DNA from: Verrucomicrobiota bacterium
GTDB lineage: Bacteria; Verrucomicrobiota; Verrucomicrobiia; Limisphaerales; PALSA-1396
Length of the DNA stretch: 64,000 nt
NCBI GenBank assembly: GCA_016200005.1
Contig: JACQFP010000053.1
Location: 124,001 to 188,000, forward strand
Reading direction: 5' to 3'
Positions 6,758 through 58,562 of the stretch are shown one piece after another; position 1 is the first letter of the stretch, and every line of letters begins with the position of its first letter. A model generated the notes under the pieces. The model was not told where the DNA came from. It ran no database searches and was given only the letters and a program-made list of their open reading frames with translations. A program made the position numbers and the translations under genes.

Positions 6758-9565
6758 TCACTGGACGACCTCGACGCGGTAGAAGCGCGCCATGGCCGCG
6801 CCATCATCAGTGAAGCTTTGAGTGGACGGCTGCCCCAATGGCGTCGGGTCGATTTCTTCGGCAGCACTCCGTTCAATGGATTGGAAGCCGCCTCCGAGGT
6901 CGCCGTTGGCATCAGGTTCGACTCGGCTGATCCGGTAACGCGTGCCGCCGACGGAGGTCCAAGTCAGAATGAAGCGCCTTTGCTCATCCATTCGCGCGCT
7001 GAGAATCCTCAGGCTCGAGCCGGCATCGCGTGGATCGGTGTTGGCCCAGTATTCCGCCGCGTTGCCGACGCCATCACGATCCTCGTCGCCGTCCGGATTC
7101 GTGAGGCCGTGTTTGGTCATCCAACCGGCGGAAACTCCGTTGGGCAATACATCGGGCGGATTGAATACATTAAGTGAGAAAGTCGCCGGCTCACTGAACA
7201 TCAACCCGTCAAAAACGCGGAAGATGAAGTGATCCGGCCCAGCATAGCCGTGCGCTGCCGTGTAAGTGCATTTGCCCTTTATAGGATCAAAACCGGTGAT
7301 CAGGCCGTGTCCCGGCAGCGAAAAGAGTTGGTATGTCAACACGGCATCCTCGGGATCACTGCCGTGCAATTTCAACGGTCGCGGTGTATCTGCGTGGATC
7401 AGAGCGGCCAGGTTGTTGGCGCTGGGCGGGTAATTCGTGGTGGAGGTGAAATGCCAAATCGGTCCGCTGACAATGTTTGTTCCATCACTCACACTGACCT
7501 GCCACTCGTACAGAGTGCCACGGGCGAGATTTGTCCACGCGAGCGAAGCATTGTTGCCGGAAGGAACTCCGGCCACAGTGCCGAGCACGGCAAAGGGGTT
7601 CGTCGTCGTGCCTTCCCGGCCGTAAAACGTCACGGCTAGATCATTCGTCTCCGGATCGGAAACATTCACCGTCAACTCCGGTGGTGTGGGCACTTCCACC
7701 GCGCAGTCAAGCGGAGCGATCAACACCGGCGGATTCGGTGGATCGTTCAGTTTCTGGATCGTGAAGAAGTCATTGGTGGTGCCGTTCTCGCGAATGAACT
7801 TTGCATCAAGCCGGTTGCCCGAGATGTCAAGGACGAGTGAACCAAGATTGTTCAACGAAATGTACATCGCCGGATGGTTCAACGAGCCGCCGCTGATCTG
7901 CCCGGAACTTCCGACCACCGCATAGACCGCGCCCTGATGCGAAGCCGGACCGCCGGCGGGCTTAGTGTACACGCCGCTGCCTGATTCGCGCCCGCTGCCG
8001 GCGTTCAATTTATTGGTGGTGGAGAGCGTGGACGATTGTCCATAATGACTGTCCAGCAGGAACGACCTTTCATAACAATGGCTGTGTCCGCTCAACACCA
8101 AATCCACGCCATACGCCTCGAGGATCGGCAAGAAATTGCGCCGCATCTGGATCAACTCAATTTCAGCGTCCGAGTTGTGTGAACCCTTGCTGTAAGGCGG
8201 ATGATGCCAGAAGGCGATGATCCAATCTGCCGTCACATCTGCGAGATCGTTGGTAAGCCAGGTGGCCATGGCGCCGTTGGTCGCGCGATTCGCCGTCATC
8301 GAGTCCAGGCAGACGAAGTGGATGTTCGCGTAATTGAACGAGTAATAATGTTCCGTCCCGGACGCCAGGCCGCCGGCTTCCCCGTTCTTGGGAAATGTGA
8401 AAATATTGAAGTAAGGATAGTTGTCGGTGAACGCGGTGGCCTGGGCAGTCTCATGGTTGCCAAGAGTGGACCACAAGACCGTTTTACGCAGCAGGTTGGC
8501 GTAAATATTAAACACAGCGGTTTGGTATTCGCGATCCGTGCCGCTGTCGTAGGCGTTGTCCCCGAGCATCAACCACAAATCCGTGTCACGTCCGGCCGTG
8601 AATTTTTCGTAGGCGTTCCGGACGTTGATCTGGTTCGCGTTGCCCGTGCCCGAATCGCCGATGACCCAGATGCGTGTCGGCTTGCGTGTGCCCGGAATCG
8701 GCGGCGTGGTGAAGAAATGATTCGTGTCACCGCCCGCGAGGTTGGTGCTCACCGTGCCGACGGCATAAAAGTACTTTGTGTTGGGCCGCAATCCCGTCAA
8801 GTTTACCTCGTGTTCAGTGGATGCCGTGTTGACGTCCGCCTGCGAAATCAACTCGGCGAGGTTTGTACCGAAGCGGACGCGACCGCCGGTGGCCACGTCT
8901 GTCCGCCAGCGAACCACGAGGCTCGTGGGTGAGGCGCTTTGCAAGTAAGGTCCGCGCGTGACCCGGGCTGAAATCCCGCTTACCAGACTCGCCGCCGAAC
9001 CCAACACAATGTCGGAACTGTTCGTCGCCTGCTGATGCACTTCCACCGCCAGAACATTGTCGCCATTTACCAGGTTCGTCAGCGTATCACCGGACAATCC
9101 GAATACATCGTACGCGGACGCATCTCCCACCACTCGCGAACTCAGCGTCTCATAAACCACCGGGCCCGCCGGCATGCCGAGGCGCTGGATTTCGACGCCG
9201 TTCAAATAAAACACGGCACCATCATCAATGAGGTTTGAGAAGACCAGCACGCTGTCCGGTGGCGCGCTGGTCGCCGTAAAGTGCGTGCGGAAATAATACG
9301 TCGCGGCACCCAGTGTCAGCGGCGTGTTTTTGGGCGCCGGTAACGGCGCTGTTTCAACGAACAGCAGTGCTGGTCCGGACGCCCAAGACGAATCGTCAAA
9401 ATCGAACGCAGTCCAGTTGCTGGCATCCAGACTGCCGGCTTGCCAATAACGCCACTCGTTGGTGATGCCGAACAGAAGATTGGTCTGCGCGGCGGCGGCA
9501 CGCGTAGAGATGAATCCGCCGGTTGTGACCAGCAAGGCGACGATTCCAAGTCGGAGCAAAAACAT
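6758..9565 (-). CDS. Secreted purple acid phosphatase-like metallophosphoesterase, modular
   Basis: 935 residues with a signal peptide (MFLLRLGIVALLVTTGG...). Modules in order: a galactose-binding-like beta-sandwich (about 30-190), a fibronectin-like purple acid phosphatase N-domain starting ARVTRGPYLQ, and the calcineurin-like catalytic domain. Metal motifs are GDSG (about 303), GDNAYD (about 332), GNHE (about 370), HHPPY and GHSHCYERS (about 493). Then come an Ig-like domain, a cadherin-like domain, a calcium-loop segment (NPDGDEDRDGVGNAAEYWA) and a C-terminal tail ending ...ARFYRVEVVQ. It probably hydrolyses phosphate esters outside the cell or in the periplasm. The tail is shared with four other secreted proteins in this window. 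Confidence 0.85.
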   Translation of the reverse strand: MFLLRLGIVALLVTTGGFISTRAAAAQTNLLFGITNEWRYWQAGSLDASNWTAFDFDDSSWASGPALLFVETAPLPAPKNTPLTLGAATYYFRTHFTATSAPPDSVLVFSNLIDDGAVFYLNGVEIQRLGMPAGPVVYETLSSRVVGDASAYDVFGLSGDTLTNLVNGDNVLAVEVHQQATNSSDIVLGSAASLVSGISARVTRGPYLQSASPTSLVVRWRTDVATGGRVRFGTNLAELISQADVNTASTEHEVNLTGLRPNTKYFYAVGTVSTNLAGGDTNHFFTTPPIPGTRKPTRIWVIGDSGTGNANQINVRNAYEKFTAGRDTDLWLMLGDNAYDSGTDREYQTAVFNIYANLLRKTVLWSTLGNHETAQATAFTDNYPYFNIFTFPKNGEAGGLASGTEHYYSFNYANIHFVCLDSMTANRATNGAMATWLTNDLADVTADWIIAFWHHPPYSKGSHNSDAEIELIQMRRNFLPILEAYGVDLVLSGHSHCYERSFLLDSHYGQSSTLSTTNKLNAGSGRESGSGVYTKPAGGPASHQGAVYAVVGSSGQISGGSLNHPAMYISLNNLGSLVLDISGNRLDAKFIRENGTTNDFFTIQKLNDPPNPPVLIAPLDCAVEVPTPPELTVNVSDPETNDLAVTFYGREGTTTNPFAVLGTVAGVPSGNNASLAWTNLARGTLYEWQVSVSDGTNIVSGPIWHFTSTTNYPPSANNLAALIHADTPRPLKLHGSDPEDAVLTYQLFSLPGHGLITGFDPIKGKCTYTAAHGYAGPDHFIFRVFDGLMFSEPATFSLNVFNPPDVLPNGVSAGWMTKHGLTNPDGDEDRDGVGNAAEYWANTDPRDAGSSLRILSARMDEQRRFILTWTSVGGTRYRISRVEPDANGDLGGGFQSIERSAAEEIDPTPLGQPSTQSFTDDGAAMARFYRVEVVQ

Positions 9566-10155: not shown

Positions 10156-12708
10156 ATGAATGCTCCAAAACAAAGTCCCAAACCAAATTGCGTCGTTCAA
10201 CCGTCAGATGACTTGCCTACGAACAGGGAAAGCTCGTCCACAGCAAGAAAACCGCAGACTTCCTTCACCTTGCCTTTGTGCCTGATGGCCTTTATTTCCC
10301 TGCTATTCGGAACGCCTTCGACCCGCGCTGCTTTACTGCCCAAGAACTTCTGGGTGAATCCGGCTTTCGAGCTTGGCAGTAACCTCAACCAAACCGACGG
10401 CACCGTTTCCAATTGGAGTCGCGGAGGTGGCGATTCGACCATCTGCCAGGTGATCACCAATAACTCCGTGAGTTCAAGTCATTCATTGGCGGTCATCGAC
10501 GCCAATAGCGGCCCCGACGGTTACGGCGAGTGGTACTCCGACCTCACTTTTAGCGGCCAAGCTTACCCCGGCGACACGTTGGATATCCAGTGGTATGAAA
10601 TGTATAACCTCGACAGTCCTGAGATGCGCTTAACCGTGCTATTTTTCAATGCCGCCGACTCAGTCGTTGGACAAACCCACTTTGTCACGACCAACGCGAC
10701 CAGCGGCGGATGGGTGAGCACCATCGAAGATTCCACATTTACGAAGCGAAATGAGACCTTATCCGTGCCGCTCGGCGCGGTGAAAATGCGCTGTTCTCTG
10801 GTCTCCGGCGGTCCCGCAGCCACCACCGGGGTCATGATCATTGACGACTTATCCGTGGCGCGCTCACCCGTGCCGAACCTACTGTTCGGCAACTTCTGGG
10901 TGAATCCATCGTTCGAGCTCGGCGTTAACCTCGACCAAACGAACGGGACTCCTTCAAATTGGAATCGCGGAGGCGGTGACACGACGATCGATCAAGTCCT
11001 TACTAATAATTACGCCAGCTCAAATCATTCGTTGGCCGTCATTGATACCAATACTACTGGCAGCGGTTACGGCGAGTGGTACTCGGACGTGACTCTCAGC
11101 GGCAATGCCAGCCCCGGTGACACGTTGAATATCCAATGGTTCGAAATGTATAACATCAGCGCCGCCGAGATGCGCTTGTCAGTGCTGTTTTTTGACGGAG
11201 CGGATGTGGTCGTTGGACAAACCCATTTTGTCACCTCCGGCACCACTAACGCCGGATGGCTAGGCACCATCGCGGATTCGACGTTTACGAAGCGCAATGG
11301 GTCCGTGTTGGTGCCGACCGGCGCGGTGAAGATGCGCTGTTCCCTGGTATCCGGCGGTGACGCATCCATTACCGGGGTGATGCTCGTTGATGATTTATCG
11401 GTGGCGCGCGTGGCGCCTACGGTGTCGGGCAACTTCTGGTTGAACTCGACTTTCGAGACCGGTACCAGCCTCGATCAACCTACCGGCACGCCCGCAAATT
11501 GGAATCGCGGTGGCAGCGATGGCTCGATTGATCAGGTCACCACCAACAAATCTGTCAGCCCCACACATGCTCTGGCAGTTGTGGATACCAATGCCACTGG
11601 TTACGGGGAGTGGTATGCGGACGTTTTGCTCAGCGGCCACGCCAACCCGGGCGACCGGTTGGATGTCCAGTGGTCTGAAATGTATGGCATCACCAATGGA
11701 AGCATGCGGGTGACGGTCGGGTTTCGCACTGCCGGCGACGCTTTCATCTCGGAAACTAGTTTCAACGTGTCCGGCAATAGTGCCGGGTGGCTGGGCACCA
11801 TCGCTGGCTCTACCTTTGTGGCGCGACAACAAGACGTGGTGGTGCCTGCGGGCGCGGGGAAGATTCGTGTTCAACTGGCCTCCGCCGGTCCCGTCGCAAC
11901 CGTCGGCGTCATGGTCATCGACGATTTGACCGTGGCCCTTCATCCCTCGACCGTCCTGGCGGGGAACTTCTTCCCGAATCCGACGTTCGAGAATGGCGAT
12001 CAGTTGGACAATCCCACGGCCGCAACGCCGGCCGGCATTTGGAATCGCGGCGGGGGTGATAGTTCGATTGATCAGGTCAGCGCGGGCAACTCCGTCAGCC
12101 CAACCCACTCATTGTCTTTGTTGGACAACAATACCGCCGGCAACGGGTACGGCGAGTGGTACGGGTTTCTCACCCTGTCCGGCGTCGGAACTGACGACGT
12201 GCTCGATCTGCAATGGTTCCAACTCTACAGCGTGACGAATGGGGCTATGCGTTTGAGCTTCAGGTTTACCGATGCCGGGAATGGTGAGTTGGGATTCGCC
12301 AACGATTTCAACACGTCTGGCGAAAGTAGCCCGGACTGGACGGGAAGCATCGCCACATCGCCCTTCGAGCGGCGTAACGAAAGGCTACTGGTGCCTGCGG
12401 GCGCCGTGAAACTCCGGGTGAACTTCGCCTCCGGCGGTGCCGGGAGCGTGACGGGTACGATGTTGATCGACGATTTGTCAGTGCGGCTCAGCGTGCCGAA
12501 CATTACATCGTTTGTGCCTGATTCGGGTGGCTTCAATCTGACTTGGGACAGCATGCCGAGCAAGACTTACAAAGTTCAATTCGCGACCACTCTGGGTTCT
12601 TGGGGGGACCTCGCAACTGGCCTGGCTTCGGGCGGCCTCACAACGTCGTATTTGGACACTGCCATCCATGCTGGCACTGCCGGCTTCTATCGCGTCGTTC
12701 AGGAGTAA
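10156..12708 (+). CDS. Secreted protein with four tandem GNFW-type beta-sandwich modules
   Basis: 850 residues. A long basic N-region (about 36 residues) precedes the hydrophobic signal segment FTLPLCLMAFISLLFG; a GGAAAG ribosome site precedes the ATG. Four repeats of about 180 residues begin near 63, 245, 425 and 603. Each opens NFW-x-N-P/S-x-FE, then NWNRGG-x-D, HSLAV-x-D-x-N, GYGEWY and ends with a ...VMIIDDLSV strand, a layout like carbohydrate-binding jelly-roll domains. The last about 70 residues form a different tail (LTWDSMPSKTYKVQF ... FYRVVQE). No catalytic domain was seen, so it probably binds a glycan. A single copy of the same module starts the protein at 26036. Function is inferred, not recognised from a named family. 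Confidence 0.75.
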   Translation: MNAPKQSPKPNCVVQPSDDLPTNRESSSTARKPQTSFTLPLCLMAFISLLFGTPSTRAALLPKNFWVNPAFELGSNLNQTDGTVSNWSRGGGDSTICQVITNNSVSSSHSLAVIDANSGPDGYGEWYSDLTFSGQAYPGDTLDIQWYEMYNLDSPEMRLTVLFFNAADSVVGQTHFVTTNATSGGWVSTIEDSTFTKRNETLSVPLGAVKMRCSLVSGGPAATTGVMIIDDLSVARSPVPNLLFGNFWVNPSFELGVNLDQTNGTPSNWNRGGGDTTIDQVLTNNYASSNHSLAVIDTNTTGSGYGEWYSDVTLSGNASPGDTLNIQWFEMYNISAAEMRLSVLFFDGADVVVGQTHFVTSGTTNAGWLGTIADSTFTKRNGSVLVPTGAVKMRCSLVSGGDASITGVMLVDDLSVARVAPTVSGNFWLNSTFETGTSLDQPTGTPANWNRGGSDGSIDQVTTNKSVSPTHALAVVDTNATGYGEWYADVLLSGHANPGDRLDVQWSEMYGITNGSMRVTVGFRTAGDAFISETSFNVSGNSAGWLGTIAGSTFVARQQDVVVPAGAGKIRVQLASAGPVATVGVMVIDDLTVALHPSTVLAGNFFPNPTFENGDQLDNPTAATPAGIWNRGGGDSSIDQVSAGNSVSPTHSLSLLDNNTAGNGYGEWYGFLTLSGVGTDDVLDLQWFQLYSVTNGAMRLSFRFTDAGNGELGFANDFNTSGESSPDWTGSIATSPFERRNERLLVPAGAVKLRVNFASGGAGSVTGTMLIDDLSVRLSVPNITSFVPDSGGFNLTWDSMPSKTYKVQFATTLGSWGDLATGLASGGLTTSYLDTAIHAGTAGFYRVVQE

Positions 12709-12812: not shown

Positions 12813-12965
12813 GACTGAAATGATTGCTTTATCGAGCGCACGGCCTTGCGGAATTAATGAGTGACGACCGGCCAAATCACTCTCGTAAACTGTGTCAACC
12901 TGTGCCCCTATGTTTCAGCGCGAGCGAAGAGGTCGATCACGTCGTGTCCGATGGTTAGTCCAATT

Positions 12966-15131
12966 ATGAAAAACTCTTCCTTCGTTCTGCGAATCCTGCC
13001 AGTCGTTGCCTGGTTGGTGACGACGGGAGATGCAGGGTGCCTCGGCGCGGTTGAGGAGACTTTGCAATCGAGGATCCCTCGCGTTGAGCGGATGCCGAAT
13101 CTTCCGCAGCCGTTTGCGATGCGCGATTGGTCCCAACTGACTCGTGATTACCTCGACCTCGTGTTCGATTTCGAAAAGCGCGGCGAGCATCTGCCGCTCG
13201 TCGGTTGGCTCGATGCGGGCCGCACGATGGTATCGTTCCCGTCTTATGTCGGCGGGCCGAACGATCCGGAGGCCGTCAACTATCTTGCGGCGGTTGTCAG
13301 CGGGTCACTTGTCGGCTTGGACATGCGGAATTATCGCGGTCATGACTGGGTGACGTTAGGGACAAATTTCTTCAACGTGGAAGAAGGGGTTTACGTGAAC
13401 CGCCCGCACGGTAGCACAGGGGGCTCATTTTGGTATGACGTTTTTCCCAATGTTCTCTTCTACCAGCTCTACGAGCTGTATCCGGGCAATCCTGCACGCG
13501 ACAAGCAGGCGCGCTCGGCGGCGCAGAAGTGGTATGAAGCTTGTGTGGCGTTAGGCGGTAAAACCGACCCACACGCACTGCCGAATTTCGATCACACCGG
13601 ATTGAATCTGAAAACCATGAAGCCGACGGAGCAGGGGCGGATCGAACCGGAAGGCGCCGCCGGCATCGCGTGGCTCGAATACATGGCGTGGCTGAAATTC
13701 AAAGACTCGCGCTTCCTGACCGCCGCAGACTGGGCCATCCGTTCACTGGAGGAAAGGCCGGTCGCTAAAAGTCCCCTCTATGAAGTTCTGCTGCCCTATG
13801 GCGCCCTGATCGCCGCACGCATGAACGCCGAACTGGGTCGTCATTACGATGTCGCCAAGCTGGTGAATGCTTGCTTTGAACCGCGCGGCCAGCCTCAAGC
13901 CCGACCGGGATGGGGAGTCATAGCGGATCGCTGGAATGGGCTGGATGCGGATGGCCTGGTCGGCAGTACCACGGACGGCGAAGGCTATGCGTTTGCCATG
14001 AACACGTTTCAATGGGCGGGCGCATTGGTGCCGTTGGCGCGCTATGACTCGCGATACGCGCGGGACATCGGCAAGTGGACGCTGAACCTGGCGAATGCCG
14101 CGCGTCTTTTCTATCCCAACGCCCACGACGCCGGGCACCAATCGAGTTACGCCTGGGCCCAAGCGCATGACGCCAAATCGGTGATTGCCTACGAAGGAAT
14201 CCGCAAGTGGAAGCGCGGCGCGGCGACCGCCCGTGCCGATTACCGTACGGTGCGGGGAAAAATCGTGGAGGGAAGTTTCGCGTCCACACATTTTCGGAGC
14301 GACGTGCCGCCCGATCGTGAGGTATTCGAAGAGGCGTCCGGCAATGGGCCGCCGTTTGAACATATCTGGGAGTTCACCCTTCCCGAGGCGCGGTCAAAGT
14401 GGCTCGTGGTGGCGGCAGACCGCATTAATGGCGGACATGCTGGCAATGTCTTCCGGTTTTCTTACGCGAGCCGTCCTGATGGCCCGTACACGCCCGCTTT
14501 CTCGGTGGCCGGCTCAGGTCCCGCTCAGGTGGTTGAACTGCCCGCCGCGCTTCAGACCAAACTCTACGTCAAGGTGGAGAGCAGTGACCGATCGGCCGGT
14601 TGGAGCGGCCCGGACCGGCTATCGGTGGACGCCATGGCGATTTCCTATCAATCCAGTATCGGCCCGTTTGCCCAAGGTGACTTGGTGGTTACATTCATTG
14701 ACCTCCTCAAAGAAGCCACCGTTCCCATTGTGCTCTATCGCCCCGCTGCGGCCGCGACCGACCTGGGTCTTTATGGCAGTTCGCATGTGGGAATTCTTGG
14801 CGGCATCATCAAGCCAACCAACGTCGAAAAAATTCTGCAATTGGACCTTCTGAAAACGGATTACTTCCACGCCAAAGCGTATCCCACCTACCTCTATTAC
14901 AACCCCTACCCTTCAACCAAGACAGTGGAGATCGCTGTCGGGGCAGAGGCGAGGGATATTTACGATGCGGCCAGCGATCAATTTCTCCAAAAGAACGTTT
15001 TCGGTCGCGCGCGCATCACCATCCCGTCAGACACCGCGAGGATCGTGGTGCTCACTCCGGTGGGAGGGAAAATATTGCGCGAGGGAAAACGGACTCTGAT
15101 CGACAATGTCATCGTGCGTTACAGGGATTAG
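12966..15131 (+). CDS. Secreted helical-domain protein, putative glycan-active, paralogue of the protein at 26036
   Basis: 721 residues from the ATG at 12966, chosen because it opens a signal peptide (MKNSSFVLRILPVVAWLV). The core looks like an (alpha/alpha) barrel. Shared motifs with the protein at 26036 are SYVG-x-P-x-D, FWYD-x-FP (WYDIFP there), GIAWLEYMA, ARMNAELGR, PGWG, then G-S-T-T-D-x-x-G-Y-A-F and LFYP. About 150 residues (roughly 414-565) form an inserted beta-sandwich absent from the paralogue (FEHIWEFTLPEARSKW...). The C-terminal beta domain includes KAYPTYLYYNPYP. I do not recognise a named glycoside hydrolase family. The context (four-module binder upstream, GH130 and permease downstream) suggests glycan processing. 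Confidence 0.7.
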   Translation: MKNSSFVLRILPVVAWLVTTGDAGCLGAVEETLQSRIPRVERMPNLPQPFAMRDWSQLTRDYLDLVFDFEKRGEHLPLVGWLDAGRTMVSFPSYVGGPNDPEAVNYLAAVVSGSLVGLDMRNYRGHDWVTLGTNFFNVEEGVYVNRPHGSTGGSFWYDVFPNVLFYQLYELYPGNPARDKQARSAAQKWYEACVALGGKTDPHALPNFDHTGLNLKTMKPTEQGRIEPEGAAGIAWLEYMAWLKFKDSRFLTAADWAIRSLEERPVAKSPLYEVLLPYGALIAARMNAELGRHYDVAKLVNACFEPRGQPQARPGWGVIADRWNGLDADGLVGSTTDGEGYAFAMNTFQWAGALVPLARYDSRYARDIGKWTLNLANAARLFYPNAHDAGHQSSYAWAQAHDAKSVIAYEGIRKWKRGAATARADYRTVRGKIVEGSFASTHFRSDVPPDREVFEEASGNGPPFEHIWEFTLPEARSKWLVVAADRINGGHAGNVFRFSYASRPDGPYTPAFSVAGSGPAQVVELPAALQTKLYVKVESSDRSAGWSGPDRLSVDAMAISYQSSIGPFAQGDLVVTFIDLLKEATVPIVLYRPAAAATDLGLYGSSHVGILGGIIKPTNVEKILQLDLLKTDYFHAKAYPTYLYYNPYPSTKTVEIAVGAEARDIYDAASDQFLQKNVFGRARITIPSDTARIVVLTPVGGKILREGKRTLIDNVIVRYRD

Positions 15132-20666: not shown

Positions 20667-20962
20667 AAATCTTCTCCGGCTTTCGGTTTGTCGGTCAGGT
20701 AGGCCGTGACCACAAACGCATCGTTCTCCGCATACTTGACCACAACGCACAGCCATTTGCCACCCACAATCGTCTGCGCGTAAAATTCGTAAAACAACCG
20801 CACCGCTTCATCCGAACGCGAACGCCGCACCAATTGGGGTTGAATCAACACCCGCTCAATCTCCGCGCCCATCTCCTTCATTTCGGGATGCTCAAGAATG
20901 TGCGCCAGCCGCTCATCCGTGAGCCGGACTTGATGGCCGAAACAATCTTGCAGCGTTTTCAT
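20651..20962 (-). CDS. Putative toxin (DUF4258/PBECR-like small nuclease fold)
   Basis: 103 residues. Begins MKTLQDCFGHQVRLTDERLAHI, has the LTDERLAHILEHPEM motif common in phage/plasmid toxin-like proteins, then RSDEAVRLFYEFYAQT, KWLCVVVKY and FVVTAYLTDKPKAGEDLW. The beta-strand series with a terminal TAY-x-TD resembles RelE/BECR-fold nucleases. Pairing with the overlapping DUF2283 gene supports a toxin role. Start overlaps the stop of the type IIG gene by 4 bp, so it is carried in the same operon. Confidence 0.65.
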   Translation of the reverse strand: MKTLQDCFGHQVRLTDERLAHILEHPEMKEMGAEIERVLIQPQLVRRSRSDEAVRLFYEFYAQTIVGGKWLCVVVKYAENDAFVVTAYLTDKPKAGEDLWPIK

Positions 20963-23900
20963 TTGGCGGCTTGCACGAGGGCTTTTTCTTCCGCCGTCAG
21001 GCCGTAAAGGCGATAGACGATCTGGTCAATCAACTCGTCGGTGAAGGTGATTTGCGATTCCAGTGGCACGACTTTGTCTTTGGCTGTCTGGAAACGGGTG
21101 CGGAGTCTTTCTTCGTCCGAATCTTTGAGGCGGAACTTGTTGGCGCGAAAATGGGCGAAGGCTTCGGCGGCATCAAGCTCCCAAAACTTGTCGAGCTTGG
21201 TTTTGGGTTTCAAGGCGTGGGCGTCAACGCCGTGGAAATCTTTGAGGTCGGTCAGGAATTGTTTGGCGGTGGCACGTTTCTCCCGGTTCAAGGTTATCAT
21301 CTGTTCGGCCAGGAAGGCGAGCAGGTCGTGGACGATATCCGCGCGTTCGGGTCTGGCGGCAAGTTGCTCCGTCACGAAGGCCAGCACACTGTCCGGGTTT
21401 CCATCCGACGCGCTGCGTTGGTGAAGTTGCTTGGATTTGGCGACGAGCGATGCACGCGACTTCTCTGGCGTCGTGAATTCAATTCGGCGGATGGGAAGCT
21501 CGCCAAGATATTGTTTGGTGCATGTGATCCAGCCTCCGCGAAAGAGATTGCTCATTTGAGCAAGCTTCCAAAAAAGCAACTTCGAGTTTATGAGCGCTAG
21601 CACGTAGCCTGAATTAACCGTCGCGGATTCGGCCAAACTAATCGTGAAGCCTCCGCTGGCCATCGGGCAGAATTCGTTCCGGAGGCTGATTGGAACGTGA
21701 GCGAACAATCCGCGATCTGCCAAGAGCGGGATGTAGATTTGAGCACGGTCGTGAAGTTCAAGATTTCGTGGCGCGCTGTAGCCAAACCATTGCGCGAACT
21801 GCTTACGCTTTTCAAGCCTCTGTCGCGCGTTCTGCAAATGGGCGAACGCTTTCGGGAAACGGGCTTTCAGCTCATCCTCCGAGTAAAGTCGGTACGAACC
21901 TCCGTCGAGCCAATATGGGAAAATAATTTTCCAGCGTCCGGCCGGAGCAAAAGAGTATCGGCCGAAGTCCGAAGCGAACACCGGGACGCGACAGATGCCT
22001 TCCTCAATGTCTTCGTTCTCATTCATGAACACATCATCGTCCCCGCTGCTGCTCCCTCGGCTCATCTCTGCCGGGAGATCGAGCAAGCGGATGGAATCGC
22101 GCTGAATCTTCTTGAGAAGATCCGCCGCAGCATCGGTGGAAAACGTCCATGAGCTTTGGTCTAGCGATTTGCCGGCGATGCGCGTGAACTTCGGGGATCG
22201 CAGTGAGTGCGAGTCCGCTCGCGCTTCAGCATAGTCGAACGCTTCTTGAATTCCGCGTGTGAGGAAAAGCAAACAAGTATAAGTCGTGGCGGGAAACACC
22301 TGGCTTGCGCCGAAGTCAACGATCTGTGTCAACATGCCCTCGCGTGTTATCAATCGCCGCAAACCCTCTCCATAATCCGTCTTGAAAAACTTGTTCGGTA
22401 CAATCTCGCCGAGGAGTCCTCCCCGTTTGAGCATTTTCAAGCCGCGCTCGATGAAACTCACATATAGATCAACATTGCCTGTGGCTGACTCAAAGTTCTC
22501 TGCGAGGAAGTCAATTTCCAGACGTGGGAAGCCTTGAATTCTCACGTATGGGGGATTTCCGATCACAGCATCAAAGCCTGGACTGTCTCTGTGCGAACCA
22601 TCGTCGTTGAAAAAGACTTCAGGAAATTCGAGTTCCCAGTGGAAGTAAGGTTTGTCGAGCTCTTTGATCCCGTAGCGCGCCGCTGCTTCCTGCAATCGGG
22701 CCGCGCTTTCTTGCGCCACCACGAGGATTTCTTTTGCCGCAGCCAAATACTCTTCCTCACTTAGCGGCCCATCGAAGAAGATGTTTGTCCAGAGGTCTGC
22801 CACCCTCTTGTACGGCGCGAGCCGGGGCAGGATTTCAGTTTCCCAGCGCTTTTCCTTTGCCTTCACCGTCGCCATATCGAGGCTGACTTGTCTTTCGATT
22901 TCGTGAATCTGGCAGATGGTTTCGGCCACGGCCTGCTTGAAGTCAGGGCCGAACGTAAAATGGATTTGTTGCGCGCCGCCTTTGCTCTTTTTCTGCGGCA
23001 GACTGCCGAGCTGATCGAGGCGCGCGCCGATGAGCGAATTTCCGCGCCGCAAGTGATGGTCGAGAAAGTTGAGTGGCTGGTCGCTGGAGATGGTGGTGAG
23101 CCAGAGCGAAAGTTTGGCAAGCTCCACGGCCAGCGGATTCAGGTCCACGCCATAGATGCAGGCTTCAACGACGCGCCGCCGCCAATAAGCGATCTCGGTT
23201 TCTTCCTGAGACTCGCCCTTGACGAACTCCGCCTGAAATCTCGTGGTCGGGTGATAAACGATTTGGTCAGCCAAAAACGTGGTTGCCTCGACGAGGAAAT
23301 GGCCCGAACCCATTGCTGGATCGCAGATGTTCAGCTTGAGGACTTCGCCCGCGAATGAGTTGTCCTGTTTGCCGGCGGCACGGGCGGCTTTAACCATCTT
23401 TCGTTGCTCGATTTCCTGCAACAGTGGCGTGATCGTTTGCTCGACGATGTATTTGACGACGTAGTCAGGCGTGTAATATGTGCCGGTGGCTTTGCGTTCC
23501 GCTTTATCGGTTTTAAGCACGAGCTTGCCGCCCTCGCGCACGAAGTGGTGTTCGAGCAGTCCTTCGTAAATCGAACCGAGTTGTTGGACACTGAGGTCGG
23601 CGTAGTCCACCGACTCGAAGGGGACAAACTTTTGTCCGCGCTTTTCCGGGGTAAACATGAGTTGCCGCAACACGTCCGCCAGCACCGCGTCGGCCACGGC
23701 CCACTCCTTCAGCAGCGGGCAGTGGTCGGGGTCGAAAAGCCCGCCGTTGTAGCGCGGAACTCCGAATTCATCATTCGCCTTCTTGTCTGTCCCGTTGATG
23801 ACCAGACAGAGCGCATGGATGTCGCGGTAAAAGCGCGTTTGAGTCTGGCTGTCGTACTCGGTGAAGCTTTTCAGTGGCACGAGGAGGCGGGCGAGCGACA

Positions 23901-25828: not shown

Positions 25829-25916
25829 CGTTCGTGATGAATGTCAGGTCGGAGGACATTGCCGCAGAGCTTGCCGCCGCTTGGATTTTGGTTCAACTCG
25901 ATAACGGCGAAACTTT
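25829..25916 (+). repeat. Direct repeat, right copy, flanking the HigBA-like module
   Basis: Right copy of the 88-bp repeat described at 24895. The following 120 bp up to the next start codon hold a related AAATTAG...CACTACC site (25958-25973) and two adjacent TGATTTA heptads (26019-26032), and no supported gene. Confidence 0.8.
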
Positions 25917-26035
25917 GTGCGATTAAACGTGGGTTGCTCCGAGGCGATCCGCCTGCGAAATTAGAGCACTACCGTGAGCCACGTACTGTGAACTCGAATG
26001 TGTGTTATGATTTAAATGTGATTTATGATTTAACC

Positions 26036-28594
26036 ATGGCCCGGTCGTTTCATGTGCCCCGGCGGTTCTTTTATCTTTTGACAGCGATACTATCGCTGGT
26101 CTGGGCGCCCCCACTCCTCCAGGCGGGACTCCTGCCCGGCAACTTCTGGCCGAACCCGACTCTCGAAACCGACACCAATAACGACGGAGTGCCGGATTTC
26201 TGGCACAAAGGCGGGGACAGCCAGGCGATCGACGTGTGGACCACTGCGCTGTCGCTCAGCCCTACACATTCCTTTCAGCTCAACGACACCAACGCCACTG
26301 CCTATGGCGAGTGGTATTCCGACCGGCTCAACATCACCGCTGGCACGAACTATCAACTACGCTACAACCTGCGCTACACCATCACCAATGTCGGACCGAT
26401 GCGCTTGAGCGTAAACTTCTATAGTGCTGCCGATGCGTCATTACCCGGAGTGAGCTATCTGTTCTCCAGCGCCCACGATTTCTGGGAGGAATTCACGCAG
26501 TCGTTCACCGCTCCGGCAGGCGCAGCGAAGCTGGAACTCCACTTCACTTCGGGCGGCGGCGCGGATGTCACCGGCCAGGCTTGGCTGGACGACATCTCCT
26601 TGGCCCCGGCGACGAACGTTAATTCGTTGGTGCCTTACCTCGAAAACTTCCCGTTCTTGCCGGATCCACTCGTCATTCGCGATTGGAAGCAAACCGCGCT
26701 TGATTATCATCAGCTTGCTTTCAACCCATCCGTCACGGGCCAATATCTGCCGCTGCTCTATGAATACACCGCGAACACCGCAGCGGGTTTCTCCGGGCCG
26801 GCCTTTGGTCTGCCGAGTTACGTCGGCAACCCGCGGGACAGCGGGGAGGCGCTCACAACGCTCGGCGGCGTGCTGGGCGGCACCCTCGCGGGCCTCAACC
26901 TGGCTTCGCTCAACGGCCAGGACCGCGTGCAACAGTGCGAGGTTTTCTATTGCGTCGTCAATGGCCACGGCCTGCTTTTGAACAACATCAACTCCCAGGG
27001 CTCTGGCTCCGCCTGGTACGACATTTTCCCGAGCACGCTGCTTTATCAAATCGGCTCGCGCTATCCGGGGCGGGCTTCGTTTCAAACAAAGATGGCTGCC
27101 ATCGCGGACAGTTGGCTCACCGCGCTGCCGGTGTTGAGCAATAACTGGGAACATGCCGGCTTCAGCTTTCAAACGATGACGCCGGTCAATAAAGCCTGGA
27201 TCGAACCGGACATGGCCATCGGCATCGCGTGGCTCGAATACATGGCTTACGTGCAATTCCACGACGCCAAGTATCTCGCCGCTGCCGACACCTGCCTGAC
27301 GCAGATGAACAGCCGCACGACTAATCCGTTTTACGAAACGCTGGGCTTTTTCGGCCCGCCACTGGCCGCCCGCATGAACGCGGAGTTGGGTCGGAGCTAT
27401 TCGACGAGCAAACATCTGAACTGGATTTTTGCTCCCGGCTCCGATGCCCGGCCCGGTTGGGGCTGCGAGAACTCACGCTGGGGAAACTATGACGCCTACG
27501 GTCTGATGGGCAGCACGACCGACTCCAGCGGCTACGCCTTTTCGATGAACTCCTATACCGCCGCCGGCATCATCGCGCCCGTGGTCCGTTATGAGCCGCA
27601 ATTTGCCCGGTTGCTGGGCCGCTGGTTGTTGCATGTCGCCGCCAACGCAAACCTTTTTTATCCGAGCACGCTTCCAACTAATATGCAGTCCAGCGCCGCG
27701 TGGGTGGAGCAAACCGGCGTGCAAAGCATCTCTTACGAAGGCGTCCGTCACCTCGGCACCACGACGCCTTACGCGACGGGCGACGCCGCCGCGCCGATTC
27801 AAGATTTGAATCCCTATGGCACGTGGGGGAGCGGATTCATGGCGGCGTTGTTCAGAACGTCGAACGTGCCGGGCATCCTCCAAATTGATTGCGTAACCTC
27901 GGAAGCCTTTCCGCCGCCCGCCTATCCAACTTATCTTTTCTACAACCCTCACGCTATCGCGCAACAAGTCACCATCAACGTCGGAGCGAACACGAATCAT
28001 TTGTTTGATGCCGTCACCGGCGCTTTCGTGGCCACCAATGTTACGGGGAATGCCAACTTCACGATTCAGCCGGACGTCGCAGTCGTTTTGGTGCAGTGCC
28101 CGGCGACGGGCGCCATCAGCCAGGCTAGTCAGAAATTGTCGGTCGCGGGCGTTGTCATCGATTACTGGAATGCCGCGCGAGACAGCGAAGGCGACGGTCT
28201 GCCCGACTGGTGGGAAAGCCGATACTACGGAAGCATCACCAACGCGTTGCCACAAGCGACCGCCGCCAATGTCTACAACAACCTCCAATGTTACTGGCTC
28301 GGGCTGGACCCAACTAATCCCAACTCCACCTTCAAAGTGCAAGCCGCTGTCCAGCCCGGCACTGGCTATCCGCAAATCACGTGGAGTTCCGTCGGCGGAA
28401 AGACCTACGCCGTGGAATACGCGAACAGCCTTGTTGCATCGGGGACGGTGTTCACCCAGGCGCTGACTGTGACCGAGACTAATGTGCCCGCGGGCGTTGA
28501 GAGCACCGAGACGTTTGTGGACAATTACGAACTCACCGCTGGACCACCCGGCTCGAAGGGACGTTACTATCGGATCAGGTGGGTTGGGCCCTGA
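26036..28594 (+). CDS. Secreted GNFW-module plus helical-domain protein (fusion paralogue of 10156 and 12966)
   Basis: 852 residues from the ATG at 26036, which gives a signal peptide (RRFFYLLTAILSLVW...). Residues about 30-195 are one GNFW module (LLPGNFWPNP, HSFQLNDTNA, YGEWYSD, AWLDDISLAP). Residues about 196-690 match the core of the 12966 protein: LPSYVGNPRD, WYDIFPSTLLYQI, GIAWLEYMA, ARMNAELGR, PGWG, GSTTDSSGYAFSMN and AYPTYLFYNP. A calcium-loop segment follows (DSEGDGLPDWWESRYYG), then the shared tail (ITWSSVGGKTYAVEYA ... YYRIRWVGP). The fusion links the binder and helical proteins in function. Catalytic residues are not identified. Confidence 0.75.
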   Translation: MARSFHVPRRFFYLLTAILSLVWAPPLLQAGLLPGNFWPNPTLETDTNNDGVPDFWHKGGDSQAIDVWTTALSLSPTHSFQLNDTNATAYGEWYSDRLNITAGTNYQLRYNLRYTITNVGPMRLSVNFYSAADASLPGVSYLFSSAHDFWEEFTQSFTAPAGAAKLELHFTSGGGADVTGQAWLDDISLAPATNVNSLVPYLENFPFLPDPLVIRDWKQTALDYHQLAFNPSVTGQYLPLLYEYTANTAAGFSGPAFGLPSYVGNPRDSGEALTTLGGVLGGTLAGLNLASLNGQDRVQQCEVFYCVVNGHGLLLNNINSQGSGSAWYDIFPSTLLYQIGSRYPGRASFQTKMAAIADSWLTALPVLSNNWEHAGFSFQTMTPVNKAWIEPDMAIGIAWLEYMAYVQFHDAKYLAAADTCLTQMNSRTTNPFYETLGFFGPPLAARMNAELGRSYSTSKHLNWIFAPGSDARPGWGCENSRWGNYDAYGLMGSTTDSSGYAFSMNSYTAAGIIAPVVRYEPQFARLLGRWLLHVAANANLFYPSTLPTNMQSSAAWVEQTGVQSISYEGVRHLGTTTPYATGDAAAPIQDLNPYGTWGSGFMAALFRTSNVPGILQIDCVTSEAFPPPAYPTYLFYNPHAIAQQVTINVGANTNHLFDAVTGAFVATNVTGNANFTIQPDVAVVLVQCPATGAISQASQKLSVAGVVIDYWNAARDSEGDGLPDWWESRYYGSITNALPQATAANVYNNLQCYWLGLDPTNPNSTFKVQAAVQPGTGYPQITWSSVGGKTYAVEYANSLVASGTVFTQALTVTETNVPAGVESTETFVDNYELTAGPPGSKGRYYRIRWVGP

Positions 28595-53272: not shown

Positions 53273-53300
53273 TTGACAACTTGGGCAGGGTCACTAGGGT
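53273..53300 (+). promoter_or_regulatory. Sigma-70-like promoter for the PEP-CTERM gene
   Basis: TTGACA (53273-53278), 16-bp spacer, TAGGGT (53295-53300), about 38 bp before the start codon. Confidence 0.6.
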
Positions 53301-53337
53301 AGGTTCAACTCGAAATCAACGATGGACGGAGTTCTAT

Positions 53338-54116: not shown

Positions 54117-55595
54117 TCAAGGCGGTGAGTAGGCGCGGTAGAAGCGGTAGGGCACGTTCGCTACGGAAGAATTCGTGTAATCGAAGCGGCCCGCCGATAG
54201 ATTGGTGGTCAGGAGCGACACCCAGTTTGCCAGATTCGTTGAGGCTTGGATCACGAACCCCTGCGGCGCGGTTCCAGTGACCGTCAGACGAAACCGGCCT
54301 TCCGGCAAAAATAACGCCTCACTCAAACCAAGTTGATTAATGCTGACACTGACGTACCAGTTGTTCGTACCACGAAGCAGGTTAACGGGGTCGTTACGAA
54401 CCAGAGGAGTAGGGTCATTTACCACGGCACGAATCACGTGGGTGCCGTCGCCGACCGAAGTCGGGGGAAATTCGAAGCTTGGATTTGTCGCCCCGCTTAT
54501 TGTCACGCCGTTGGTGTACCACTGGATGGTCAGATCATGCGTGGCAGGTTGCATGGGCGTGACGCTGAACGCCACGGTCTGCGTGCTGAAGATCGAAAAG
54601 TTTGTGGCGGCAGGGGAAAAGGAGTCGAGGGTGCGGACGCGGTTGGTTTTGTAAATGGAGAGGACGAGTTGTTCGGTGCAAACCTCGCAGAAGGGAACGA
54701 AGAGGTGGTTCATCTTGCAGTCAAGCCTGGGTCGATACCAGCCGTTGGTCTGATACTGAGCGCCTTGGAACAAGCCGACCAGGTCGGAGTTGGTCGGATC
54801 GTCGGGTGTGGGCAGTGGGGTGTTGGTGAGAATCCACGTTGTCCACCGGATCTGAGCGCGATTGGTTTGGGTGGTGGCGTTGGGCATTTCTACGGGCGTG
54901 AATCCGGGGTAGGCAGTGTTGTATTCATCGGCCAGGCCGCCGATCATGTGGCCGGATTCATGCACGACGATTTCTGGTCCGTAGGAAGGGTTGATTGAAG
55001 TGATCGCAAGGGGCAGGGGATCGCCCGGCGTTGGCGGCTGTCCGGAGCCGCCGGGTTCCGGATGGTTTACCAACAGAATGACGAAATCATATTGCGGCAT
55101 CAAATTGGTCAGCAGGGTCTGGACTTTGCCTTTGCCTTGGCTGTAATCGTTGCTCCCGTAAACTGTGCTGCCATTCGTCCAGGCGTTTGGCGGAATGGTA
55201 ATGAGAAGTGAATTATTGTAGCTCTGATACATGCTGTTGAAGTAAGTGTTCTTGAATTCTCCGCTGACAGGATGATCCGAGCCGGATTCCACGGACGCGA
55301 TGGAGATGGCGAAGGCGTTGAAGTAATTCGAGTATTCTTGAAAGGGCTGGGCCGCGAACAGATTGCTCACGGTATTGACGGCGTCCACGAGAAACTGCGC
55401 GAGTTGATTGCTTTGGTAACCCTCGGAAAGGACAACGATGTTGAGTCGCTGGCTCGCTGGCCCGTTGGTGAAAATTGTCGAGAGCGTTCCTTGACCAAAG
55501 ATTCGAGCGAACGGGAAAGCCAGCAGCAGCAGCGCGAGGACAACTCCATTTCCTTGCACCCGACGAAAGCGAGCAATGGAACAGCCTCTTGTCAT
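54117..55595 (-). CDS. Secreted M64-family (IgA peptidase-like) metalloprotease
   Basis: 492 residues with a signal peptide (NGVVLALLLLAFPFARIFG). The zinc site EIVVHESGHMIGGLADEYN near 209-225 is the M64 H-E-x-G-H-x-x-x-x-L-x-D-E-Y signature; RLNIVVLSEGY and FNAFAISIASVESGSD are other family landmarks. After the catalytic domain (to about 335) are an Ig-like domain and the shared tail (LTVTGTAPQGFVIQASTN ... YRFYRAYSPP). Likely an extracellular protease. The tail suggests export by the same route as its neighbour. Confidence 0.87.
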   Translation of the reverse strand: MTRGCSIARFRRVQGNGVVLALLLLAFPFARIFGQGTLSTIFTNGPASQRLNIVVLSEGYQSNQLAQFLVDAVNTVSNLFAAQPFQEYSNYFNAFAISIASVESGSDHPVSGEFKNTYFNSMYQSYNNSLLITIPPNAWTNGSTVYGSNDYSQGKGKVQTLLTNLMPQYDFVILLVNHPEPGGSGQPPTPGDPLPLAITSINPSYGPEIVVHESGHMIGGLADEYNTAYPGFTPVEMPNATTQTNRAQIRWTTWILTNTPLPTPDDPTNSDLVGLFQGAQYQTNGWYRPRLDCKMNHLFVPFCEVCTEQLVLSIYKTNRVRTLDSFSPAATNFSIFSTQTVAFSVTPMQPATHDLTIQWYTNGVTISGATNPSFEFPPTSVGDGTHVIRAVVNDPTPLVRNDPVNLLRGTNNWYVSVSINQLGLSEALFLPEGRFRLTVTGTAPQGFVIQASTNLANWVSLLTTNLSAGRFDYTNSSVANVPYRFYRAYSPP

Positions 55596-55619: not shown

Positions 55620-58436
55620 TCACGGAAACGTGAGTCGGAAGAAACGCTTTTCAGAGTCGGTGGACAACGTCACCACGTTTTGACCGCTCATGACGACGGG
55701 CGTGTTGGTCACCTCCGCCCACACAATTGGCGGAGAAAGATTGGTGGTCTGTTGCAGGCCGAAGCCATTGGCTGTGTTCGTCCAGGAGAGAGTGAACTGA
55801 TGGGTCGTGTTGGAGAGGGTTGCCGTCAATCCTGGTTGGGGCGCGGCGGAAAGGCCCAAAGAGAATTCCGAGGTGTTATTGGAGGGATCAGTTGCGGTCG
55901 CGGTGATGAGTTGACCGACGGGCACGGTCATCGGCAAGGCGACGGTGAAGTTCTGCGTGCAACTTCCACCCGTGGTCACGTAAGCGTCTCCCAAAAATGT
56001 CTGCCCCTCGCCGTACCCTGACGGTTCAACGAGGGTGTTGGCGTAAAACTGCAAGAGGTAGGTCGTATTCGCCACGCTGTTCAGCGTGCCCCGCACCCAG
56101 GTGCCGTTGCCCGTGTAAACCGCACTTAAGACAGGAAAATTTTGTTTCTGATTGGCGCCGGTGTCCGTGTCGCAAGCGTCATTGGCGGTGACTCCGTCCG
56201 TGCTCACATCAATGCCCAGACCATTGACGGCTGACCCGCCGTTCCCGAAGATCGAATTGCCACGGACAAGATTCGCGGTGCAGCCATCGCGGATACGCAC
56301 ACCGTCATAGGCGCCGGAAATGGCGTAGGCGATGACGTTGGCTTCGCCGGGCGACGCGCCGCCGATGAGGTTGCCGCTGGACGTGTTCGCGATTTCCACT
56401 CCGTGTTGTCCGTTTCCAAGGGCGTTGAGGCCGTCGGCGCGGGTGCCGATGAGATTGCCAATCACCTGGTTTCCATTCGCACCTGGGTCGCCGATGGCAA
56501 CGCCGACGAGAGCGTTGCCCGAAATCAGGTTGCCGGCGCCGGCACCGCCGACCTGATTCGATGACGCACCCGTGATATAAACCCCACCAAGCCCATTTCC
56601 GAGCGCGCTGCTTCCCGTCACATCAGTGCCGATGTAATTGCCTGCGATCACATTCCCCGTAGCGGTCGGCCGGACCACGTAAATGCCGGTGCCCGCGTTG
56701 GCTGAAATGACGTTGCGCGCGGTGCTGGTCGTTCCGCCGACGGTATTGTCGGGCGCATTGTCAAGGCCGAGACCCATGTTGGAATTACCCAAGGGGGCTG
56801 TCCCGGTGACGTCGGTGCCGATGTAGTTGCCTTGGACGACGTTGTTGGAAGCGATTAAGCCTAAAAAATAAATCCCGCTGTTGGTGTTAGCCGACACAAT
56901 ATTTCGACTGGTGGCGACGCTGCCGCCAATTGAATTGCCGAAGGCTTCGACCCGAAGGCCCGCAGCGCCATTGCCCAAACGCCGCGTGCCGGTGAGGTCG
57001 GTCCCGATAAAATTCCCCTGCACCACGTTGCCCTGACAATTCGCATCCGCCAGGTAGATGCCGTTTTGAAGGTTCCCTGAAATCACATTCCCAGCCCCCG
57101 GTACGGCACCGCCGATGAAGTTGTTCGAGACGCCGGAAATGAAGATGCCATTATTCATGTTACCCAGGGTGTTTGTTCCGTTCACGTCCGTGCCAATGAG
57201 ATTCCCCTGCACCACGTTGGTGCTGGCGCTGGAACTGTCAATGGACACGCCGCTAAGTTGGTTGCCGGAAATAAGGTTCCCGGCGCCGGTCAGCGCTCCA
57301 CCAACAGCGTTGCCAGAGGCATTGAAAATCTCGACGCCGCTGTAGGCGTTGGCCAGTTTGTTCGTGCCGTTGACATCCGTGCCGATGAAATTTCCCTGGA
57401 TCTGGTTGGCCGTTGCACCGCCGGTATTGAGGAGCACGCCGCGGCCGCCGTTGCCGGAAATGACATTGCGCAGCGTCGGGTTGGTGCCGCCGATCACATT
57501 TCCCGTGCCGCCGGAAATCGTCACGCCATCGGCAGTGTTGCTGATGGCGGCGGTCCCGTTGACATCGGTGCCGATGAAGTTGCCCTGAATGAGGTTGGTC
57601 GTTGAGCCAGGATTCAAATAAACCCCACTCTGCAAATTGCCGGAGATGATGTTCCGCGCGGCAACACCGCTCCCACCGATTTGATTCCCCCTGCCACCGG
57701 AAATGGCGATGCCGTTTTGCGCGTTGCCCAGACGCTTGGTGCCGGTGACATCGGTGCCGATGAGATTTCCCTGGATTTGATTTCCGACGGCGGTCGCGTT
57801 CAGGAGGAAGATGCCATGCTTGTTGCTGCCGGAAATCAGGTTGCGGTTCGTGATGTCAATGCCGCCCACCAGATTGCTGGCGGACAGAATCGTGATCCCG
57901 CCAAACCCGCTGGCGGTATTGCCGTTGCCCAGCGAGTTGGTCCCATAAACCCCAGTACCAATGAAATTTCCATGGATGACATTGCCGCCGTAGGTTTCGA
58001 TTCGGATTCCTTCTCTTGCGAATTGGTCAATCGCCAACCCTCTGACCACGCAATTGGGCGCGAGCAGGTAAAGCCCGCTGGCACTGCTGCCGGCCAGGAG
58101 GCCGTTCAATTCGATGAGCGGTTGACCGGCATACCCGATTTGCGTCGTCCCATCGATCCTCACAGTTTCGGTGATGGACGGCAGTTGAGCGACCAGATTG
58201 ATGGTGAAGGGTCCGGCACCCGGAAGGTTGAAGACCACGTCGCTCCCTGGATTAGCGTTGGCGTCGAGGATCGCCTGCCGCAGCGACCCGGGAGGTGGGG
58301 AGACATTATTGTCATTGGCGTTGGTGACGGTTAGCGTTGACGCTTGAATCGAAAAAAAAACCGTCCCGATTCCGACACAGGCACAAGCAAGCCAGATTTT
58401 GGCCCAACGGGACGGGGTTCCGCGCATACCTTGCAT
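55620..58436 (-). CDS. Secreted right-handed beta-helix repeat protein
   Basis: About 938 residues; ATG at 58436 or 58427, followed by a signal segment (IWLACACVGIGTVFFSIQA). Begins with the polymorphic-outer-membrane-type leader GSLRQAILDANANPGSDVVF. Then nine copies of G-N-x-I-G-T-D-x-x-G-T at about 48-95 residue spacing, alternating with N-x-I-G-G and N-x-I-S-G-N turns, the ladder of a parallel beta-helix. Ends in an Ig-like domain and the shared tail (FTLSWTNTANGFGLQQTTN ... RFFRLTFP). Likely an adhesin or polysaccharide-binding/lyase-like surface protein; no catalytic site recognised. Confidence 0.82.
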   Translation of the reverse strand: MQGMRGTPSRWAKIWLACACVGIGTVFFSIQASTLTVTNANDNNVSPPPGSLRQAILDANANPGSDVVFNLPGAGPFTINLVAQLPSITETVRIDGTTQIGYAGQPLIELNGLLAGSSASGLYLLAPNCVVRGLAIDQFAREGIRIETYGGNVIHGNFIGTGVYGTNSLGNGNTASGFGGITILSASNLVGGIDITNRNLISGSNKHGIFLLNATAVGNQIQGNLIGTDVTGTKRLGNAQNGIAISGGRGNQIGGSGVAARNIISGNLQSGVYLNPGSTTNLIQGNFIGTDVNGTAAISNTADGVTISGGTGNVIGGTNPTLRNVISGNGGRGVLLNTGGATANQIQGNFIGTDVNGTNKLANAYSGVEIFNASGNAVGGALTGAGNLISGNQLSGVSIDSSSASTNVVQGNLIGTDVNGTNTLGNMNNGIFISGVSNNFIGGAVPGAGNVISGNLQNGIYLADANCQGNVVQGNFIGTDLTGTRRLGNGAAGLRVEAFGNSIGGSVATSRNIVSANTNSGIYFLGLIASNNVVQGNYIGTDVTGTAPLGNSNMGLGLDNAPDNTVGGTTSTARNVISANAGTGIYVVRPTATGNVIAGNYIGTDVTGSSALGNGLGGVYITGASSNQVGGAGAGNLISGNALVGVAIGDPGANGNQVIGNLIGTRADGLNALGNGQHGVEIANTSSGNLIGGASPGEANVIAYAISGAYDGVRIRDGCTANLVRGNSIFGNGGSAVNGLGIDVSTDGVTANDACDTDTGANQKQNFPVLSAVYTGNGTWVRGTLNSVANTTYLLQFYANTLVEPSGYGEGQTFLGDAYVTTGGSCTQNFTVALPMTVPVGQLITATATDPSNNTSEFSLGLSAAPQPGLTATLSNTTHQFTLSWTNTANGFGLQQTTNLSPPIVWAEVTNTPVVMSGQNVVTLSTDSEKRFFRLTFP

Positions 58437-58562
58437 TTGAGGCGGCAATCTAGCACAAATTGCAGTCGTCGCAAGCACGAAGAACGTTCCAGAGAACGGC
58501 GACATTTGGGGATCGGTTCAATCAACCCGGAATGTGCCTTCAAAACTAATTCAAAAAGAAGA

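Follow-up and report, generated by a model that had tools for sequence, protein, structure and literature searches.

The five C-terminal tails carried by secreted proteins of the window, as we call the whole 64,000-nucleotide stretch of DNA analysed here, represent a new, uncatalogued domain family of an already known kind, namely a shared terminal domain on secreted proteins. The initial observation is confirmed, and its extent grows from five copies to no fewer than 146 across the genome. The domain is almost confined to Verrucomicrobiota and is predicted to be a divergent fibronectin type III (FN3)-like sandwich. It looks like an address label, used throughout the phylum, that would direct proteins outside the cell or onto it.

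Five tailed proteins in the window

The first-pass annotation reported five ORFs whose products end in a common tail. All five ORFs are present and their last ~70-90 residues align. Three are on the minus strand: 6758-9565, encoding a purple-acid-phosphatase-like protein (Pfam PF00149/PF16656 on the passenger), 54117-55595, encoding an M64 peptidase (PF09471, E 1.3e-36), and 55620-58436/58505, encoding a beta-helix protein. On the plus strand, 10156-12708 encodes an 850-aa protein with four repeats, and 26036-28594, for which a start at 25841 is also possible, an 852-aa protein. The FN3-like tail domains were delimited by profile matches. That of the 6758-9565 protein (6761..7000, minus strand) was matched at contig positions 130761-131000 by a profile built from the five tails and at 130764-131006 by a 27-tail profile; it has a long insertion between strands C and C' and ends FYRVEVVQ. 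The tail of the 10156-12708 protein (12496..12705, plus strand) ends FYRVVQE and that of the 26036-28594 protein (28331..28591, plus strand) ends YYRIRWVGP. The M64 peptidase tail (54120..54326, minus strand) reads TNLANW ... RFYRAYSPP and the beta-helix protein tail (55623..55838, minus strand) reads TNLSPPIVW ... RFFRLTFP.

The alignment of the five tails is characterized by x-F-x-L-T-W, a Tyr strand, T/S-N-L-x-x-W, and F-Y-R-V with 2-5 residues at the end. One Arg, in the FYR motif, is invariant. The T-N-L-x-x-W initially ascribed to the tails is literal in the M64 peptidase only and does not hold as such for the other four: the beta-helix and 10156 proteins carry relaxed forms (TNLSPPIVW and TTLGSW), and the 6758 and 26036 tails have long insertions at this place. 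A calcium loop before the tail had also been claimed for two proteins and was seen in 6758-9565 (DGDEDRDGVGNAAEY) and 26036-28594 (DSEGDGLPDWWE). From reading of the sequence and a pattern scan, a TSP3/calcium-loop segment (NPDGDEDRDGVGNAAEYWANTDPRDAGS) lies directly before the 6758-9565 tail, at approximately 7001..7110 on the minus strand, and a TSP3/calcium-loop-like segment (DSEGDGLPDWWESRYYG...GLDPTNPNS) directly before the 26036-28594 tail, at approximately 28180..28330 on the plus strand. The NF042425 (Amuc_1099) match on the 6758 protein (E 6.5e-4) covered the calcium-loop region, was far below the family cut-off and was dropped.

Other features of the window were noted. The 10156 protein contains four copies of a ~190-aa repeat, and the N-terminal domain of the 26036 protein is a further copy of it (31-38% identity); the repeat gave no confident Pfam match. 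The 55620-58505 protein contains long tandem beta-helix repeats of the form N-x-I-G-T-D-x-x-G-x-x-x-L-G-N ... G-N-x-I-G-G. The gene 53281-54036, which adjoins the tailed M64 peptidase, encodes a PEP-CTERM-type protein ending VPEPTTLWLAIFGGLALLGIRLHYSRS, and a 1305-aa ORF at 20959-24876 resembles a restriction-modification enzyme, with the NPPY motif of DNA methyltransferases.

Family size and distribution

The profile built from just five tails matched, at E≤1, 66 places in the 87 contigs (6.5 Mb) of the window's own genome, and its best match outside the window reached 8.6e-12. The likeness of the tails is therefore not due to chance. The 27-tail profile gave at least 146 own-genome matches at E≤0.1, a lower bound, as scoring covered 150 of the 254 candidates. 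Other genomes, with titles such as Pedosphaera, Verrucomicrobiales or subdivision 3, contain 85-142 copies each. No Pfam-A or NCBIfam model recognised the tail when 27 tails were searched, with nothing above noise, and no account of such a tail was found in the open-access literature on Verrucomicrobiota or Kiritimatiellae.

An internal motif, [QH]ASTNL[ATL][SNA]W, built from four more closely similar tails and blind to position, was searched in 84,980 species. Verrucomicrobiota account for 33 of the 34 loci found and Ca. Taylorbacteria (Patescibacteria) for the remaining one. The 0.8-Mb Ca. Taylorbacteria genome contains two tail genes, likely acquired by horizontal transfer; a gene of this lineage, L150:1514-4237, encodes a signal peptide and has the tail at its end. 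Within Verrucomicrobiota, the tail was found in 130 of 289 genomes.

Predicted fold and conserved positions

AlphaFold models were obtained for the M64 peptidase tail (model 1, 54120..54326, mean pLDDT 86.5) and for the 10156 tail (model 2, 12496..12705, mean pLDDT 84.8). Both consist of six strands with almost no helix, the last strand of model 2 being located at the C-terminus. VIA alignments of the two models retrieved mostly FN3 and Ig domains (Z up to 7.6), with Z values of 7.0-7.6 for model 2 against FN3. Foldseek alone gave no match under E 0.04, so the assignment of a fold class relies on VIA re-alignment and on the PDB match of the 27-tail profile to the FN3-like 3mpc (E 8.5e-5); the same profile also matched 5g56 (E 3.1e-4). 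The A4 profile, which is biased to one subtype, matched the PDB much more weakly (3mpc, E 2.8). The tails gave no match to Pfam fn3 (PF00041) at E≤1, and the only fn3-named Pfam model that they matched was PF25814, weakly (E 0.081).

FN3 targets were aligned through strand F only (residues 1-76 of ~93 for Tencon and 3-78 of 96 for 3mpc). As the tail ends after the FYRV motif of strand F, the usual seventh strand (G) is absent. A genuine FN3 domain in locus L111, picked up by the same profile, runs ~17 residues further. The six strands of both models, together with FN3 alignments that stop at strand F, point to a shortened derivative and not to a canonical seven-stranded FN3 domain.

Because the four-tail motif set and A4 are biased to ASTNLxxW, conservation of the loop was recomputed on 199 profile-found copies. 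The W of strand C' is conserved in 82% of these copies and the Y of strand C in 77%. In the C-C' loop, the L is conserved in 77% and N/D in 68%, and the FYR residues of strand F in 84, 83 and 96%, respectively. In model 1, strand C spans residues 33-40 and strand C' residues 46-54, so that TNLAN(W), with TNLAN at 41-45, corresponds to the C-C' loop. Both predicted structures and the conservation place TNLxxW at this loop.

Terminal placement and carrier proteins

The tail had been expected to lie almost always at the C-terminus of signal-peptide proteins, and nearly all profile matches are indeed C-terminal. The domain ends at most 6 residues from the stop codon in 110 of the 126 own-genome copies with a defined stop (87%; well-delimited copies in 100 regions) and is C-terminal in 63 of 66 copies of a phylum sample (60 regions across Verrucomicrobiota), placement figures from the 27-tail profile being biased since it was trained mostly on C-terminal copies. 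The least biased figures are those of the internal motif (40 of 42 closed copies, 34 loci) and of the five-tail profile (22 of 25 non-window matches). The opposite outcome envisaged by the first-pass annotation, a tail chiefly interior or equally frequent on cytoplasmic proteins, did not occur. The FYR Arg is separated from the stop by 3-6 residues in nearly all copies, with a mode of 4. The terminal residue is Pro in 68 of the 110 C-terminal copies, compared to 14 of 190 neighbouring background ORFs.

About nine own-genome copies are N-terminal, directly behind the signal peptide. Three of these are on formylglycine-enzyme-like proteins, two on hydrolase-like proteins and the rest on others. 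The domain is thus better described as a terminal module than as a strictly C-terminal signal. In the formylglycine-generating-enzyme-like proteins of loci L111, L097 and L038, the domain is N-terminal rather than C-terminal. No protein with both an N- and a C-terminal copy was found among the own-genome carriers. Tandem arrays occur in L038 (three copies), L037 and L081 (two copies each), and their last copy is always C-terminal. A handful of own-genome copies are interior.

A crude heuristic finds signal peptides in 84% of the carriers but in 49% of the neighbouring ORFs, an enrichment that had been anticipated, and most of the carriers that lack one look like 5'-truncated gene fragments. 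None of 104 complete carriers has a lipobox and only one has a further TM-like segment; the carriers are not lipoproteins. The diversity of the passengers bears out the earlier remark that the tail is common to unrelated enzymes: 76 carriers match at least 55 Pfam families, including beta-propellers, FG-GAP, LRR, RCC1, subtilases, glycosidases and FGE. At locus L131, homologues of the M64 and beta-helix genes lie side by side and both are tailed, the beta-helix homologue being 52% identical. Conversely, the window gene 12861-15131 is a tail-less paralogue of the tailed 26036-28594 protein (391 aa of the body align at 40% identity). A second similar block is present in this pair, and the tail and the N-terminal repeat domain are found in 25841-28594 only.

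Possible function of the tail

We tentatively regard the tail as an FN3-derived domain that folds on its own and serves as an address recognised in the periplasm, with the type II secretion system (T2SS) as the best candidate machine. The passenger would be exported by Sec and fold in the periplasm, where the tail would form a six-strand sandwich presenting a common surface. This surface may be the C-C' loop with T-N-L-x-x-W, the open strand-F edge with FYRV-x-x-P-COOH, or both. An envelope receptor would read the tail and pass the protein across the outer membrane, a step for which the T2SS appears the best candidate. The open F-strand edge, with its near-fixed FYRV-x-x-P end, could offer a second contact by strand addition.

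Terminal placement on unrelated passengers in three sets supports an address function, as do the mutual exclusion of N- and C-terminal copies, the C-terminal finish of the tandems and the window paralogue pair with and without a tail. The near-fixed distance from FYR to the stop, the Pro end and the 0/104 lipoproteins also support it. The nine N-terminal and few interior copies argue against it. Furthermore, the conservation of TNLxxW and FYRV may reflect folding, a Trp/Tyr core and a strand F of the Y-x-x-R-V type being general features of FN3 domains. No receptor, interaction or experiment concerning the tail was found in the open-access literature.

The T2SS exports folded Sec substrates. 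It is favoured for this reason, and because the signal of PelI/Pel3 resides in the C-C' loop and the conserved motif of the tail occupies the same loop. In PelI/Pel3, loop 3 of the FN3 domain, between strands C and C', is a key T2SS signal and contacts GspC and GspD (PMC7949064). Model 2 aligns with the PelI FN3 domain 3b4n (Z 7.2, rmsd 2.3, 67 aligned) and with Pel3 4u49 (Z 7.0), but Z values near 7 are tied with many FN3 and Ig rows, and the PelI match thus indicates fold class, not function.

The own genome contains a T2SS cluster, GspD/E/F/G/H/J, on L225. The best GspD frame (L225:9276-11828, minus strand) is interrupted in this assembly by one in-frame TAA (~10479-10481), giving two ORFs that each match GspD. 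Strong GspD matches (E<1e-70) were found in 232 of the 289 Verrucomicrobiota genomes. At least one tail is present in 127 of these 232 genomes compared to 3 of the 57 others (p 5e-13), and at least 10 scored tails in 65/232 compared to 0/57. Genus g3 (probably Akkermansia) has no tails and a weak secretin, whereas other genera of its family are tailed and have strong GspD. This GspD association, the T2SS cluster of the own genome and the tail-free genus with tailed relatives support the involvement of the T2SS. However, the association is not specific, many genomes with strong GspD have no tail at all, and Ca. Taylorbacteria, a lineage not known for T2SS, has two tail genes. Exosortase was detected in 218 of the 289 genomes, including all 65 with at least 10 scored tails, and gave three matches in the own genome. 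Phylogeny and genome size confound both associations, which do not single out the T2SS; GspD co-occurrence was rejected as proof of a T2SS route because exosortase co-occurs just as perfectly with tail-rich genomes. Elsewhere, the T2SS is not known to need a shared tail. We consider it rather unlikely that the tail is a general, transplantable T2SS address. Under this reading, more than 100 unrelated folded proteins per genome would share a single FN3 domain without strand G, and GspC/GspD or a dedicated receptor would recognise its C-C' loop (TNLxxW) and the open edge of strand F.

Attachment to the surface or matrix is a close rival of the address function and nearly as likely, given that the domain also occurs N-terminally and in tandem. 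The tail would then be a binding domain acting after export, which would hold enzymes on a surface polymer, S-layer, exopolysaccharide or substrate. Such a domain could naturally sit at either end, as carbohydrate-binding modules do, and both N- and C-terminal copies occur, as do the double and triple copies of L037, L081 and L038. Carbohydrate-active enzymes often contain FN3-like modules, and 3mpc and 5g56, the best matches by sequence, are of this type. TSP3 calcium linkers are also frequent before the tail (regular-expression scan: ~11% of the tails in the own genome, about 40% in a phylum sample). However, binding modules are usually interior as often as terminal, and 87-95% of the copies are C-terminal. 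Moreover, no conserved surface aromatic platform was identified, and the passengers, which include proteases, phosphatases, beta-propellers and LRR proteins, are not mainly glycan enzymes.

It is unlikely that the tail is a mere structural cap stabilising the C-terminal end of long extracellular proteins without any partner, for example by covering a beta edge or by protecting against carboxypeptidases through a terminal Pro. The Pro that ends 68 of 110 copies would fit such a role, and many passengers are beta-solenoids or propellers, which may need an end cap. Yet compact enzymes (M64, phosphatase) carry the tail too, and some copies are N-terminal, directly behind the signal peptide. Nor would a generic cap be expected to reach more than 140 copies in a single genome of one phylum and to be practically absent elsewhere.

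In soil and water, Verrucomicrobiota are abundant degraders of polysaccharides, with hundreds of secreted enzymes to sort. One uncatalogued domain marks a large share of the secretome, and its profile could be used to annotate exported proteins phylum-wide and the domain itself as bait for a receptor. If the tail is a T2SS signal, it bears on the long-standing question of how the T2SS recognises unrelated folded substrates. As a general address, it would give the T2SS the uniform signal that this system is thought to lack. The hypothesis is concrete and testable.

Comparison with known systems

Fibronectin type III domains (PF00041; 3mpc of C. thermocellum, the consensus FN3 Tencon) share with the tail the predicted strands A, B, C, C', E and F, a W in strand B, a Y in strand C and a strand F of the Y-x-x-R-V type, and align with it by VIA at Z 5.9-7.0. 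They differ in that Pfam fn3 does not score the tail, which has no strand G and is almost always the last domain of its protein.

The N-terminal Fn3 of PelI/Pel3 is, like the tail, an FN3 domain at the terminus of a Sec-exported protein, and its signal loop between strands C and C' (PMC7949064) corresponds to the place of TNLxxW in the tail. However, it has seven strands, is N-terminal, is found in one enzyme family of gammaproteobacteria and is 13-18% identical to the tail. The tail is carried by more than 100 unrelated proteins per genome, mostly C-terminally, and its use of the T2SS is proposed by analogy.

The C-terminal domain (CTD) of type IX secretion systems (T9SS; TIGR04183/PF18962; RgpB CTD) resembles the tail in logic and size, as a ~75-aa Ig-like C-terminal sandwich on many unrelated Sec-exported proteins of one phylum. 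Its C-terminus and one loop are important (PMC4804311, PMC11285876), and more precisely its last residues and the β3-β4 loop (PMC11285876). It is nevertheless very improbable that the tail serves as the CTD in a diverged T9SS. None of 27 tails matched TIGR04183 or PF18962 (E≤1, Pfam and NCBIfam), which disfavours CTD membership by sequence, and the own genome contains no PF18962 protein. T9SS CTDs have seven strands (3+4) and not six, belong to Bacteroidota and are strictly C-terminal, unlike a domain with ~9 N-terminal and several interior copies. They are read by SprA/PorV/PorU, a set not found here, SprA being detected in 0/289 Verrucomicrobiota genomes and in 0/14 control genomes by a search that thus had no positive control.

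PEP-CTERM and GlyGly-CTERM signals consist of a short motif, a transmembrane helix and a basic end. Sorting of a PEP-CTERM type by exosortase is just as improbable and this identity was rejected for its wrong anatomy: all 65 tail-rich genomes have an exosortase and the PEP-CTERM protein 53281-54036 adjoins a tail gene, but no tail read has a PEP motif, a transmembrane helix or a terminal basic cluster, and genus g3 mostly has exosortase without tails. Like the tail, these signals are regions of homology at the C-terminus of many unrelated proteins with signal peptides, and they were recognised by similar reasoning (PMC1569441, PMC3237569); unlike them, the tail is predicted to be a soluble folded domain.
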